From Candidatus Nitrosothermus koennekei (GTDB lineage: Archaea > Thermoproteota > Nitrososphaeria > Nitrososphaerales > Nitrosocaldaceae), in the NCBI GenBank assembly GCA_013538715.1, contig JACAFH010000002.1:124001-188000 (forward strand): a stretch of 64,000 bases of DNA. The letters are read 5' to 3'. Positions 36,577-42,000 of this stretch are shown one piece after another (positions within the stretch are counted from its first letter, which is position 1; each line of letters starts with the position of its first letter). The translations under genes and the position numbers were made by a program. Under the pieces are notes generated by a model. The model searched no databases and had not been told where the DNA came from. It saw only the letters and a list, made by a program, of their open reading frames with translations.

Positions 36577-39201
36577 TCACTTACTGATAGTATAAGCCTT
36601 TTCTATTGTGACATCCAACAATGGTATACTTCTCTCATCTGTAGGAAGATTATTTATCCTATCTACTATCTCCATTCCTTCTATAACTTGACCAAATATT
36701 GTATATTCTCCATCTAGATGTGGTGCATCTTTTACTACAATGTAAAATTGTGAACCAGCTAGATTTGGATCTCCTGGATGAGCCATTGCTACTACACCTC
36801 TAGAATGTGTCATATTACTAATCTCAGCCTCAATTGTATAACCAGGTCCACCTAAACCCCATGTATCTTTACTCTTATCCTTTGTATTTGGATCTCCTCC
36901 TTGTATAACAAAATCTTTAACAACTCTATGTATCTTTATGCCATCATAAAATCCAGTGTCTATAAGTTTCTTGAAGTTATTAACCGTCTTTGGTGCTATA
37001 TCAGGCATTAATTCTATAACTACTGCTCCTTCATCTCTTCCATCTACACTAAGGTTTAGTATAGCATATTCCCCACTTGAAAGTCTTGATGAGATCTCTT
37101 TTACTCTAGCATCATAATCTACTTTCTCCTTCTCTACTACACCTTTGATCTTGTATATTAACACTCCAAATACAATATTAGATGATTTATCATTAAAACT
37201 TGGAGAAGAATATACTAATTCTAATGCACCATTCTCATCATATTTTACTTGCTCCATATATATGGCTGTACTTCCACGAGTAAACTGTGGTTGTACACTA
37301 ACAGTCCCATTCTCATTTATTGATGCATAGCCTACTGGTATTACAGGGAATGTCTTACCTAATAATGTAAACCAAAATTCTGCTGTTGGGGTAAATCCAT
37401 CATTCTGAATGTATCTACTCTCGTTAACACCAGCAATCCTCATGAACCAATGCTTCTTACTTTCATCTCCTCCACCTCCTAATGATAGGAAATTCTGATC
37501 TATTCTCTGTGCAACCATATATACTAATAGATAATCAGCCTTTAATTCGTCTTTTAATATTTTTATACCTTCCTCCTCTTCGGATGTTAAAGCAGCTGCT
37601 ATCCTCTCTATCCTTGTAGAATTGATTGTAGCGTTATCCGCTAATGTTGATCTCTCTCCTAATACAGTAATCCAATATCCATAATCCCACCATGATGCTA
37701 TAACAGCATCCTTCTCTGTATTATTCTTTATCCATTCTAATGCATCTATCCAATCTCTTGTCTCTACTCTTAATGATGTTGCGCCATTAGAGATAGTTGG
37801 AGGTATATCAGCCATTGCTACCCAATTCCCATTTGGCGGATAAAAGAGAGGTACTGAAAGCATTGTTATCATTAATGAACTATAGATTAATCTCGAATCC
37901 CTTGGATCAAATATACTTCTTACTCTATACCCCTTCTCAAATATTACTCTAGTTATCTCTACAAATGCTATTGCTGCTAAGACTATTATACTTAATGATG
38001 AAAATACCATAAGTCTAGCAAATGATGAGCTTATATAGATTCCAGTTAAACCAAGCACTAGAGCAAATATATGCATAGGAGTCCTTTTCCTAAACGATAT
38101 GAATGCACCATATCCTGCCAATAGCAGTAATGTAGAATAGTCTTGTGTATAATCTACTATTGTTGGCGTAAAATGTTCTGCAACTGATTCAACTAATGGT
38201 ATGTCACTCTTTGAAAATGGATTTACAACACTTATATATCTAAATGATGATGGTGCATATACACCAACTATTAAGATTGAAGAGGCTATACCAACAAATA
38301 TTGCTAATAATATAAACTTATTCCTAACCTCTTTTAAGGGATCTTTGCTTACAAAGTTGGCAGCTATTGCAAATATAGTAGACCCTATCAATCCTAAGCT
38401 TGGAAGTGAGAATAAGAATACTCCTCCAGGTCGTGGAAATGATGCTGCTGTTATTACAGTAAGAATAGTGAAGATAGGAAGTATATATATTATGCTTCTC
38501 TCTTTAGAGAAGAATGGTAATGTTACAAAGAATAGGCTTAAGAGTAATGCAAAATATTGAACGCCTCCCCATGCCGTCATACCAAAACCTAGTAATAATC
38601 CCCCTACGGCAGCTTTAATTATAGCAAATTTAAGATCCTTATGTTTTAAAGCACTAAGTAATAGATATATTGCTAATACACCATAGAATAGTCCTAAAGG
38701 TTCTGATTTAAACCAGCCGAGATTACCTCTCTGTATTATTGATGGAGATAATGAAGTAAATATTGATGCAAATACACCTGCTATATTCCCTGCTATTACC
38801 CTAACCAATCCAAATACTACTATTGTTAATAAAGAGCCAAAGATAACTGGGAACCATACTACAAAATCATATAATGGCATTCCAAAGCCAAAGATCTTAT
38901 AAAGTACTGCAGCAGTAATATGTAATCCAGTCTGAGAAGTCTTTGATATATCTCTGCCTTCTGGATACCATGACATATTATCATGCCAATTAAAATATGC
39001 ATCAAATCCATTCTCTACCAAATATTGAGTTGCTCTATAATCAAAGTATGGGTCAAATTCGTTAAGATAGAAACCATATTCTATCGGCAATGCTCTTAAC
39101 ATAAATGCTATAGAGAATGATATAGCAAGTATGCATATTATTATTAACCTTTTTTTATCAAACCTTAATAAAGGTATATTGATACTCTCTGTAGCCTTCA
39201 T
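36577..39201 (-). CDS. Oligosaccharyltransferase STT3/AglB fused to a C-terminal cyclophilin
   Basis: About 874 residues. The N-terminal part is an STT3/AglB oligosaccharyltransferase: EFDPYFDYRATQYL in the first extracellular loop (catalytic DxD-like acid), about 12 membrane helices, and WWDYGYW near residue 490 for sequon recognition. It moves a lipid-linked glycan to Asn of exported proteins. From about residue 710 a complete cyclophilin domain follows (VIELMPDIAPKTVNNFKKL, IHRVVKDFVIQGGDP with the catalytic Arg, GSQFYIVV), predicted outside the cell like the STT3 globular domain. The ATG at 39201 is preferred over the GTG at 39210 by TATA spacing (27 bases). Confidence 0.93.
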   Translation of the reverse strand: MKATESINIPLLRFDKKRLIIICILAISFSIAFMLRALPIEYGFYLNEFDPYFDYRATQYLVENGFDAYFNWHDNMSWYPEGRDISKTSQTGLHITAAVLYKIFGFGMPLYDFVVWFPVIFGSLLTIVVFGLVRVIAGNIAGVFASIFTSLSPSIIQRGNLGWFKSEPLGLFYGVLAIYLLLSALKHKDLKFAIIKAAVGGLLLGFGMTAWGGVQYFALLLSLFFVTLPFFSKERSIIYILPIFTILTVITAASFPRPGGVFLFSLPSLGLIGSTIFAIAANFVSKDPLKEVRNKFILLAIFVGIASSILIVGVYAPSSFRYISVVNPFSKSDIPLVESVAEHFTPTIVDYTQDYSTLLLLAGYGAFISFRKRTPMHIFALVLGLTGIYISSSFARLMVFSSLSIIVLAAIAFVEITRVIFEKGYRVRSIFDPRDSRLIYSSLMITMLSVPLFYPPNGNWVAMADIPPTISNGATSLRVETRDWIDALEWIKNNTEKDAVIASWWDYGYWITVLGERSTLADNATINSTRIERIAAALTSEEEEGIKILKDELKADYLLVYMVAQRIDQNFLSLGGGGDESKKHWFMRIAGVNESRYIQNDGFTPTAEFWFTLLGKTFPVIPVGYASINENGTVSVQPQFTRGSTAIYMEQVKYDENGALELVYSSPSFNDKSSNIVFGVLIYKIKGVVEKEKVDYDARVKEISSRLSSGEYAILNLSVDGRDEGAVVIELMPDIAPKTVNNFKKLIDTGFYDGIKIHRVVKDFVIQGGDPNTKDKSKDTWGLGGPGYTIEAEISNMTHSRGVVAMAHPGDPNLAGSQFYIVVKDAPHLDGEYTIFGQVIEGMEIVDRINNLPTDERSIPLLDVTIEKAYTISK

Positions 39202-39287
39202 TACTCTCACTATTCCTATCTCTCTATATTTTAATCTATAGAATTGTGTCTAATTTTAATATTCCTTGTATTAAACAAATATTATTA

Positions 39288-39944
39288 TTAAGGTTCTATG
39301 TCGAGAATATTTACATTGTATTCGCCTACTAATCTCTTAAACTTTACAGCATCATCTTTAGAACCTACTATTGCTCCATAATGCATAGGTATAATCAATT
39401 TAGGTTTTATCATTTTCACTGCTTCTACAGCTTCTTCTGGAGTCATAACATATGTGCCACTAACGGGTAGCAATGCTATATCAGTCTTTACTCCTTTCAT
39501 CTCCTCAATAGCATCAGTATCACCAGCATGATATATTCTAACATTATCTAAAGTAAATACATAACCTACCTTTTCATCATCTTTAGGGTGATATGGTTTA
39601 TTTGTAGCAGGGTTTATCTTATTGGTATTATAGGCTGCTATAGCCTCTATATCTACTCCCTGTACATTAATCTTATCTCTAGGCTTTACTATTATAACCT
39701 CCTTACATCTAATCTTCTTTAATTCAGCTTCGCATTGTTTAGGCGCAATTATGCTTGTGTTAGAATCAATAACCTTCTTAATATCATCTTCACTTAGATG
39801 ATCAAAATGTTCATGTGTTATTAGCAATAGATCTGTCTTGTATCGTTTCTTCAGCCTATACGGATCTATCATTATTACTTTACTATTGCTTATAATAAAT
39901 GAGTCATGTCCTAGCCATCTTATCTTTATCTTACCATACTCCAT
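39288..39944 (-). CDS. Metallo-beta-lactamase-fold hydrolase, UlaG-like
   Basis: The 218-residue MBL-fold protein carries zinc-ligand motifs THEHFDHL, YHAGDTD and PMHYGA plus the N-terminal WLGHDSFII. It is in the group of small UlaG/YhfI-type hydrolases annotated as metal-dependent hydrolases with unknown substrate. A TATA-like box (ctttaaaag on the minus strand) lies about 26 bases before the ATG. It is followed upstream by the PIN/aIF2 gamma pair on the same strand. Confidence 0.88.
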   Translation of the reverse strand: MEYGKIKIRWLGHDSFIISNSKVIMIDPYRLKKRYKTDLLLITHEHFDHLSEDDIKKVIDSNTSIIAPKQCEAELKKIRCKEVIIVKPRDKINVQGVDIEAIAAYNTNKINPATNKPYHPKDDEKVGYVFTLDNVRIYHAGDTDAIEEMKGVKTDIALLPVSGTYVMTPEEAVEAVKMIKPKLIIPMHYGAIVGSKDDAVKFKRLVGEYNVNILDIEP

Positions 39945-39977: not shown

Positions 39978-40343
39978 TTATCTCTCTATAATCACTTCGT
40001 CCTTTGATAATGTTATTACTCCTATACCTCTATCTTTTGCTTTCTTTTTCATCTCTTTATCTAATGTTGCTATATATGAACTATTTTTATCAGCATATTC
40101 TATTATCAAATCGTCTATCGGCTCTCCTTTGATATCTATTATCCTTACTTTCATCCTTTCTATCAATTCTAATGCTGTTCTTGCTGCTATTGCACGTTTT
40201 ACACTCTTACTTCCCTCTAAAGATTTAAGCTCTTTAATGATAGCAGATAATACTATACATTCTAAATCCTCGAGTATGTACATCCTCTTGATAGGTTTAG
40301 TAGCAATAGTGATTAGGAAACTAGAATCTAAAATAACATTCAT
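39978..40343 (-). CDS. PIN-domain protein, Fcf1/Utp24-like
   Basis: The PIN-domain nuclease has about 121 residues with acidic active-site residues in VILDSSFLI, the central Glu of IIKELKSLEG and ATLDKEMKKKAKDRG. This is the archaeal Fcf1/Utp24-like type, which is often encoded next to aIF2 gamma and is thought to act on RNA, possibly pre-rRNA. An ATG at 40376 exists in frame, but the start at 40343 forms an ATGA overlap with the aIF2 gamma stop, so translation is coupled. Confidence 0.82.
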   Translation of the reverse strand: MNVILDSSFLITIATKPIKRMYILEDLECIVLSAIIKELKSLEGSKSVKRAIAARTALELIERMKVRIIDIKGEPIDDLIIEYADKNSSYIATLDKEMKKKAKDRGIGVITLSKDEVIIER

Positions 40344-41602
40344 GTTAGTACTGTAGCAGCGCCTATTAATCGCCATCTATCTGATATCCTTCTACTTATA
40401 GCTACCTTACTATCCTTTAGTAAACATATAGGTTTCTTAAGTTTAAGAGTAATTATCTCATTTTTAACACTGCTCACAAAAGAGGTTATCACTGCTGTAC
40501 CTATATTAAGCCTTAATACTTCATTATTCTTTATAGGCTCAACTTGAATCTCGTCTGTAGTTCCAACTGCGCTATCAAAGAGTTGAGCTCTTACAGTAAT
40601 ACTGTTAACATTCTCTGGAAGTTGTCCAGGTTTACCTATAATATTACCTATCATAGAATCACTTTTTGTAAATGCTGGATCTATTTGTGTACCTATAGCT
40701 ATCAATCCTCCTGGCCTAACTTCATCTACTAAACCAGCACTAGTAGATAAACTCACTATCTTTGTTATTATAGATTCATACTTATTACTCCTCTCATTAT
40801 ATATGCCAGGTTTGATCTCTATCTCATCACCAACTCTTAATCTTCCTTGAAGCAACGAGCCACCTATAACTCCACCTTTTAGATCTTTTGGCTTCATACC
40901 TGGTTTGTTTATATCAAACGATCTTAATACATACATTATAGGATTCAATGTAGGATCTTTTTGAGGAGTTGGTATGTACTCTTCTATTGCTTCTATCAAT
41001 GCATCTATATTTATCCTCTGCTGTGCAGAGACAGGTATTATAGGCGCATCTTCGTTAACATCTTTTATAAATTCTCTTATAGCATTATAATTCTTTATGG
41101 CATCTTCTCTACTAACTAGATCGACTTTATTCTGCACTACAACTATATTCTTTATACCAAGTATTCCTAATGCAGTCAGATGTTCTCTTGTCTGTGGTTT
41201 AGGAACTACTTCATTTGCTGCTATAACCAATATTGAACCGTCCATTAACGCTGCTCCTGAGAGCATGTTAGCCATAAGACTCTCATGACCAGGAGAGTCT
41301 ACAAAACTAACAACTCTTAGTAATTCAGTCTCATTACCACAGTTAGGACATATATTTGATGTTGAATATGCGTCATGAGATTTACATACTTTGCATTTAT
41401 AAAATGCAGCATCAGCATATCCTACTTTAATAGTAATTCCTCTCTTAAGCTCTTCACTATGAGCACTTGTCCATATACCAGTTATAGCTTCAACTAATGT
41501 AGTCTTTCCATGATCTACATGTCCTGCTGTACCTATATTCACACATGGCTGTACGCCATATCTCTCCATATACCATTGTGGTAAAGTATCTCTCCAGTGC
41601 AA
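40340..41602 (-). CDS. Translation initiation factor aIF2 gamma subunit
   Basis: The 420-residue GTPase brings initiator Met-tRNA to the small ribosomal subunit. Motifs: GHVDHGKTTLVEA (G1), RGITI (G2), DSPGH (G3), NKVD (G4) and SAQQ (G5), plus a zinc knuckle (CKVCK ... CPNCG) between G2 and G3, followed by domains II and III. The start is TTG at 41602 (MHWRDTLPQWY), which resembles thaumarchaeal homologues as I recall them; an ATG at 41569 is the alternative. It heads a gene pair with the PIN protein. Confidence 0.96.
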   Translation of the reverse strand: MHWRDTLPQWYMERYGVQPCVNIGTAGHVDHGKTTLVEAITGIWTSAHSEELKRGITIKVGYADAAFYKCKVCKSHDAYSTSNICPNCGNETELLRVVSFVDSPGHESLMANMLSGAALMDGSILVIAANEVVPKPQTREHLTALGILGIKNIVVVQNKVDLVSREDAIKNYNAIREFIKDVNEDAPIIPVSAQQRINIDALIEAIEEYIPTPQKDPTLNPIMYVLRSFDINKPGMKPKDLKGGVIGGSLLQGRLRVGDEIEIKPGIYNERSNKYESIITKIVSLSTSAGLVDEVRPGGLIAIGTQIDPAFTKSDSMIGNIIGKPGQLPENVNSITVRAQLFDSAVGTTDEIQVEPIKNNEVLRLNIGTAVITSFVSSVKNEIITLKLKKPICLLKDSKVAISRRISDRWRLIGAATVLT

Positions 41603-41631
41603 ATTGATATGGGAATATAAAAAGGGTTATG

Positions 41632-42000
41632 TTAACCTTTGCTATTCTCTTCAATGGTGCCTTCTATTAACACAGCATTTATCTGATATATATCATCGCT
41701 TATAGTATTTCCTCTAACTAGTTTTCGTATCCTTTCTCCTTCTTTTAAAGCTCTTACTCCTTTTCCTTTTGTTAATAATACATATTTCTTAACAGCACCA
41801 TGGACATCATCATGCATAGGTATCCCAGCTTTGTCGCTTCCTCCTGTTATCTTTGCTTTACCTTGTATACCAAGTATGGAAGTATCAAATGTATCGTATA
41901 TTCTTAAACCTAATAATGGTTGAGCATTACTATCTTTTACTTCATAAGATCTAGATCTCTTATTCTTTGGATCTGATAGTGTTATCTTAAATGTAGGCAT
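41632..42000 (-). CDS. rps6e: Ribosomal protein S6e
   Basis: The 122-residue protein matches archaeal S6e throughout, including LLGLRIYDTFD, ITGGSDKAGIPMH and RKLVRGNTIS. It binds 16S rRNA in the small subunit. It lies 29 bases upstream of the aIF2 gamma gene on the same strand, so the order S6e, aIF2 gamma, PIN forms a translation-related operon as in other archaea. Confidence 0.96.
   Translation of the reverse strand: MPTFKITLSDPKNKRSRSYEVKDSNAQPLLGLRIYDTFDTSILGIQGKAKITGGSDKAGIPMHDDVHGAVKKYVLLTKGKGVRALKEGERIRKLVRGNTISDDIYQINAVLIEGTIEENSKG

Follow-up and report, generated by a model that had tools for sequence, protein, structure and literature searches.

We found that the window, the whole 64,000-nucleotide stretch of DNA under study, encodes in one minus-strand frame an AglB oligosaccharyltransferase (OST) joined at its C-terminus to a cyclophilin, and comparison with relatives strongly implies that this fusion is old and has been maintained across the ammonia-oxidizing archaea (AOA). 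The persistence of a fusion through deep divergence counts as evidence for a link between its two activities; here a prolyl isomerase is joined to the core N-glycosylation enzyme, in archaea with an STT3 close to that of eukaryotes, and the fusion also bears on the S-layer of globally important nitrifiers. No description of an AglB-cyclophilin fusion was found in the open-access literature, although the architecture may be listed in subscription papers or automatic domain databases. Neither the papers on AOA N-glycosylation nor those on archaeal prolyl isomerases (PPIases) mention the fusion. A 2025 study reported N-glycans for two cultured AOA and a single aglB gene each for N. viennensis and Np. 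piranensis, with no mention of a cyclophilin or isomerase (PMC12153357), and a survey of archaeal PPIases, which retained 106 of its 122 sequences on curation, noted multi-domain cyclophilins but set them aside and placed the domain at the N-terminus (PMC8530231).

Gene and domain architecture

The frame at 36577-39210 on the minus strand reads without an internal stop and comprises 877 codons from the GTG at 39210, or 874 residues from the ATG at 39201, which bears out the single open frame with both domains described in the original prediction. The features of the locus are as follows, in window coordinates.

36577..39210, minus strand: aglB-cyclophilin fusion gene (GTG start 39210, alternative ATG 39201, stop 36577-36579)
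37840..39156, minus strand: AglB membrane part, aa 19-456 (PF02516, AlphaFold2 helices, invariant columns)
37147..37770, minus strand: extracytoplasmic AglB ectodomain, about aa 481-688 (PF22627/PF21436, alignment to STT3A through aa 614)
37042..37146, minus strand: AglB-cyclophilin linker, about aa 689-723 (aa 695-710 modelled with low confidence)
36595..37041, minus strand: cyclophilin domain, aa 724-872 (PF00160, Foldseek)
39288..39944, minus strand: metallo-beta-lactamase-fold (MBL) hydrolase, directly upstream of aglB (PF13483, synteny)
39978..42000, minus strand: remaining conserved upstream block (domain calls and synteny), with the three genes below
39978-40376, minus strand: PIN-domain protein
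40340-41602, minus strand: aIF2-gamma
41632-42000, minus strand: ribosomal protein eS6

Upon searching Pfam, STT3 (PF02516) matched aa 45-410 (E 4.7e-31), the AglB core (PF22627) aa 504-563 (E 3e-7) and Pro_isomerase (PF00160) aa 724-872 (E 1.1e-48), the last scoring 165.9 bits where 21.7 is the cut-off. The membrane part holds the E51-F-D53 loop, the K168-S-E170 loop, the S342-VAEH346 motif and R399, and the ectodomain contains WWDYGYW (aa 507-513) together with a double sequon, N526AT/N530ST. Both AglB profiles and the motif thus agree with the full STT3/AglB enzyme that had been called from the letters, and the earlier wording "DxD-like loop" is apt because the second DxD motif reads K168-S-E170. 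Key residues of the cyclophilin are R762, F767, Q770, M809, A810, Q821, F822 and L832, corresponding to R55, F60, Q63, M100, A101, Q111, F112 and L122 in human CypA numbering; the domain is complete, as predicted, and its catalytic arginine (R762) is kept.

Predicted structure and topology

With 47 aligned fused proteins as input, AlphaFold2 gave a model with mean pLDDT 81.6 and pTM 0.72, in which 13 membrane-type helices, the last ending by aa 456, are followed by a mixed ectodomain, a badly predicted linker (aa 695-710, the worst-predicted region, pLDDT 35-45) and a well predicted cyclophilin with blocks mostly at pLDDT 87-95. The original estimate was about 12 helices. In Foldseek searches, the OST half matched solved STT3 and AglB structures, with TMt 0.70-0.79 against eukaryotic STT3 chains, and the C-terminal domain matched solved cyclophilins with TMt up to 0.92. 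By sequence, human and canine STT3A come closest among solved OSTs, with alignments that start at aa 17-21 and reach aa 614, and the best matches in sequence and fold are human and yeast STT3 (E 2.7e-62).

The N-terminus is K/R-rich, the predicted helix number is odd and the ectodomain with WWDYG follows the last helix, a combination that would place the cyclophilin extracytoplasmically. No hydrophobic segment was seen downstream of the AglB ectodomain, so the cyclophilin should face outside, on the same side as the glycosylation site. This orientation, which rests on homology and prediction, is the one first proposed, and a cytoplasmic cyclophilin, named beforehand as its refutation, is dismissed on the 13 helices and the lack of any further hydrophobic segment.

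Linker length varies from 26 to 97 residues across the 47 fusions and model confidence is low there, so it is unlikely that the active site is held in place over the sequon/acceptor groove, and a flexible tether is the better picture. Sequon density in the linkers is 4.6 per 100 residues, versus 0.83 elsewhere, and is highest in Nitrosocosmicus; given this richness in N-x-S/T sequons, AglB may glycosylate its own linker. Among the linkers of the window (37042-37146) and its relatives, up to 10 such sequons occur within a single one.

Conservation of the active sites

Conservation was counted in 47 fused proteins, and 16 unfused AglBs were compared for the second DxD motif. The equivalents of R55, F60, M100, A101, Q111, F112 and L122 are invariant (47/47 fusions) and that of Q63 (Q770) is kept in 46 of 47. 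The position of H126 is an invariant Y, that of N102 is R or H and that of W121 is variable (H/F/W). With its active site conserved in this way, the cyclophilin is probably catalytically competent. Furthermore, conservation is stronger in the cyclophilin, with a mean pairwise identity of 60% in the 47 fusions, versus about 54% in the AglB part.

In the AglB part, WWDYG (aa 507-511) is invariant in 47/47 fusions, the E51-F-D53 first loop is likewise invariant, and the SVSE/TIXE motif of external loop 5 is present as S342-V-A-E345-H346, with S342, A, E345 and H346 invariant and V343 in 45 of 47; the alignment strongly implies that these OST motifs are intact. The second DxD reads K-S-E (GWFKSE, 38688-38705, aa 168-170) where human STT3A has D-N-E, and metal binding by AglB may therefore differ. 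Lysine replaces the first acidic residue of this motif in every AglB checked, 47 fused and 16 unfused.

Distribution among relatives

We read 101 distinct full-length AglB loci from relatives, and 58 of them, besides the window's own, carry a cyclophilin in the same frame, several on long or single contigs. One further fusion (L071), the sole frameshifted case, is split, and two more run off a contig end. A hidden stop between the domains, set beforehand as a refutation, is absent, the same architecture being present in these 58 other full-length ORFs. The proposed search for proteins with both STT3 and Pro_isomerase domains returned the fusion from most sampled non-marine ammonia-oxidizing lineages, and, among the relatives checked, from ammonia-oxidizing Nitrososphaerales only, in keeping with the Thaumarchaeota suggested as its home group. 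Fused lineages are of soil, thermal and freshwater types, and the unfused are marine Nitrosopumilus. Among 29 genomes, amoA marks exactly families f1, f2, f7 and f9, which are also those with the fusion, and the fusion is missing from the amoA-negative relatives checked.

Across 300 genomes of the phylum, cyclophilin frames outside the order reach at most 646 aa, which is too short for such a fusion; the three longest of these frames are solute-binding-protein fusions. In family f40 of the same phylum (L123, L124, L125), a cyclophilin lies at the C-terminus of an anchored, solute-binding-protein-like extracellular protein. Viral homologues were sought in a viral collection and none were found.

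The gene order eS6 - aIF2-gamma - PIN - MBL - aglB is common to fused and many unfused genomes, which confirms the orthology of aglB; in marine Nitrosopumilus the MBL gene is absent from the eS6-aglB block. Additionally, two thaumarchaeal aglB contigs (L049, L062) are filed under "bacterium" and Chitinophagaceae MAGs, a case of binning contamination in public records, and one Nitrosopumilus-like genome (G122) has two AglB-like frames, C1:141591-142994 (480 aa, apparently partial) and C11:1633-3723 (711 aa).

Evolutionary origin of the fusion

In an AglB tree of 100 rows, all ammonia-oxidizer sequences form one fully supported clade and every checked row outside it is unfused; within the clade, the fusion label takes 6-7 changes, versus about 32 in shuffles. 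This fits one gain at the base of the ammonia-oxidizing clade and then several losses, the largest in the marine Nitrosopumilus/Nitrosarchaeum clade and the others in L066 and in the Nitrososphaeraceae L031, L070 and L032/L040. The cyclophilin tree is compatible with one fusion event or with two: in it, the window and f2 fused domains stand beside stand-alone cyclophilins (91/85 support), apart from the other fused ones, but the topology test did not reject a single clade holding every fused domain (p-AU 0.163). Since the single clade is unrejected and the AglB tree needs one gain plus losses, a single origin is favoured, not proven. Nitrosocosmicus (L111, L119, L122) has a second, probably secreted protein of 450-480 aa; its C-terminal cyclophilin falls within the AglB-fused cyclophilins in the tree (99/99) and looks like a copy taken from the fusion.

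Prolyl isomerases and glycosylation genes by genome

In the window's genome (96% complete) we found one STT3, hence a single AglB oligosaccharyltransferase, and a lipid-linked-sugar initiator (GPT/AglH-like, PF00953, E 4.4e-30). Its single cyclophilin is the fused domain, no parvulin was found in it, and the ORF of its one FKBP has no visible signal peptide, so among these three families the fused cyclophilin is the only exported prolyl isomerase found in this genome.

The sister genus (G001-G006; L142-L146) is amoA-positive. None of its six genomes has an STT3 or a cyclophilin match to the 877-aa query, a Pfam search of three (G001-G003) gave no cyclophilin, and parvulin and PF00953 were absent from the three and four genomes searched, respectively. 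Five genomes retain the whole eS6-aIF2gamma-PIN-MBL block, with no remnant of aglB; the genus looks to have lost N-glycosylation. A 2022 paper listed only two archaea without AglB (PMC8993221).

Among Nitrosopumilaceae-like (f9) genomes, 13 of 43 have the fusion, and all of the remaining 30 have another long cyclophilin protein (419-923 aa; 29 of about 420-550 aa and one of 923 aa). The 923-aa multi-domain frame with a cyclophilin (G136:C134:1985-2431) was rejected as a fusion for want of STT3 and is left out of the fusion counts. Two of these proteins, of 515-533 aa, were read whole, and both start with a hydrophobic signal-like segment. An exported cyclophilin seems always to be kept in f9, fused or free, a pattern that is suggestive only, because the genomes are not independent. 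The Nitrosopumilaceae secreted protein of about 515-533 aa (L110:159-1758, L112:339-1884) consists of a signal-like segment, a cyclophilin and a further domain, and its C-terminus is a GGCLIATAAYGSEL-type segment with hydrophobic stretches. In the amoA-negative relatives L115, L117, L118 and L128, stand-alone cyclophilins have an N-terminal hydrophobic anchor.

Proposed function and alternative explanations

We propose that the tethered cyclophilin works on surface proteins during export and glycosylation; for its coupling to glycan transfer, which we infer, the chances appear evenly balanced. As a surface protein leaves the Sec channel, AglB would scan the chain for sequons and the tethered cyclophilin would isomerise prolyl bonds of the same chain, either holding sequon regions extended long enough for modification or folding the chain immediately once the glycan is attached. 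Because the flexible linker would let the cyclophilin reach along the chain, it would act by local concentration and not by fixed placement at the groove. In favour of coupling we count the 58 other fusions, found within the ammonia-oxidizing clade only, the conserved catalytic residues, the outward topology, the single-copy STT3 and cyclophilin, the PF00953 initiator and the precedents of NmPin and FKBP11; the apparent retention of an exported cyclophilin across the 43 f9 genomes is suggestive in the same direction. Against it, the fusion was lost several times and AglB stayed, so glycosylation does not need the fusion, and the nominal catalytic site is buried in human FKBP11, so a PPIase at the OST need not be catalytic.

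The variable linker and the stand-alone exported cyclophilins of relatives fit simple anchoring equally well, and this is the main rival to coupling: AglB would hold a general extracellular cyclophilin at the surface, mechanistically uncoupled from glycan transfer. The fusion could replace the N-terminally anchored cyclophilins of amoA-negative relatives, Nitrosopumilaceae without it carry signal-peptide cyclophilins instead, and linker length ranges from 26 to 97 residues. However, a stand-alone anchor would suffice, yet the AglB fusion has been kept over several families with the STT3 part at only about 54% mean identity, and the adjacency to an OST would be coincidence; we regard anchoring as possible but doubtful. 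Another alternative, which we consider improbable, is docking, in which the pocket binds proline-containing stretches or a partner and recruits substrates to AglB, isomerisation being secondary. The buried catalytic site of human FKBP11, read as an adaptor (PMC12804085), is in line with docking, and the changed or variable N102 (R/H) and W121 (H/F/W) positions suggest a pocket specificity different from that of CypA, but the catalytic R55, F60, Q63 and Q111 equivalents are retained despite about 60% mean identity. Mis-assembly or a frameshift joining two neighbouring genes is effectively ruled out by the 58 full-length fusions in independent genomes, the frameshift in L071 being the opposite artefact, one that splits a fusion, and no support for mis-assembly was found.

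Taking coupling further, we tentatively suggest that a covalent glycosylation-folding machine was present at the base of the AOA radiation, in which the cyclophilin would govern sequon choice and S-layer folding, and that it was taken apart in marine lineages, which would rely on free exported isomerases. If true, the machine would be a covalent counterpart of the isomerase-bearing eukaryotic OST translocons. Because lineages are naturally split into fused and unfused, comparing the glycoproteomes of cultured strains could show whether an isomerase affects glycosylation.

Comparison with known systems

The fusion shares with archaeal AglB and eukaryotic STT3 the 13 membrane helices, the EFD first loop, SVxEH, WWDYG and the double sequon, and it differs from them in adding a C-terminal cyclophilin and in its second DxD, which is KSE, as in the other Nitrososphaerales AglBs checked. 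Compared with cyclophilin-type PPIases (PF00160; CypB, PPIL1, PPIL3), the whole domain and the catalytic residues are alike, whereas the fused domain is neither free nor exported by a signal peptide but joined to an OST, and it has R/H at the N102 position, a variable W121 position and Y at the H126 position. In eukaryotes, the isomerases and oxidoreductases found at the OST are recruited as separate proteins. The OST subunits Ost3/Ost6 (TUSC3/MAGT1) put a folding-type enzyme on the OST, where it is thought to delay folding for sequon modification; unlike the fused cyclophilin, this is a thioredoxin-fold oxidoreductase and a separate subunit.

At the OST-A secretory translocon, human FKBP11 is docked with its catalytic site buried in the solved complex; like the fused cyclophilin, it belongs to a prolyl isomerase family and lies next to STT3, on the lumenal face, but it is non-covalent, has an FKBP fold and is recruited in a substrate-dependent manner (PMC12804085, PMC11617091). 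The fusion has no FKBP fold with a ribosome-binding C-terminal helix; its domain is a cyclophilin at the OST C-terminus, and the arrangement alone is alike. Finally, the parvulin NmPin of Nitrosopumilus maritimus is extracellular, membrane-bound and proposed to fold S-layer proteins, and it is likewise a prolyl isomerase at the outer membrane face of an ammonia-oxidizing archaeon, but it belongs to the parvulin family and is held by a lysine patch, not covalently (PMC4922055).
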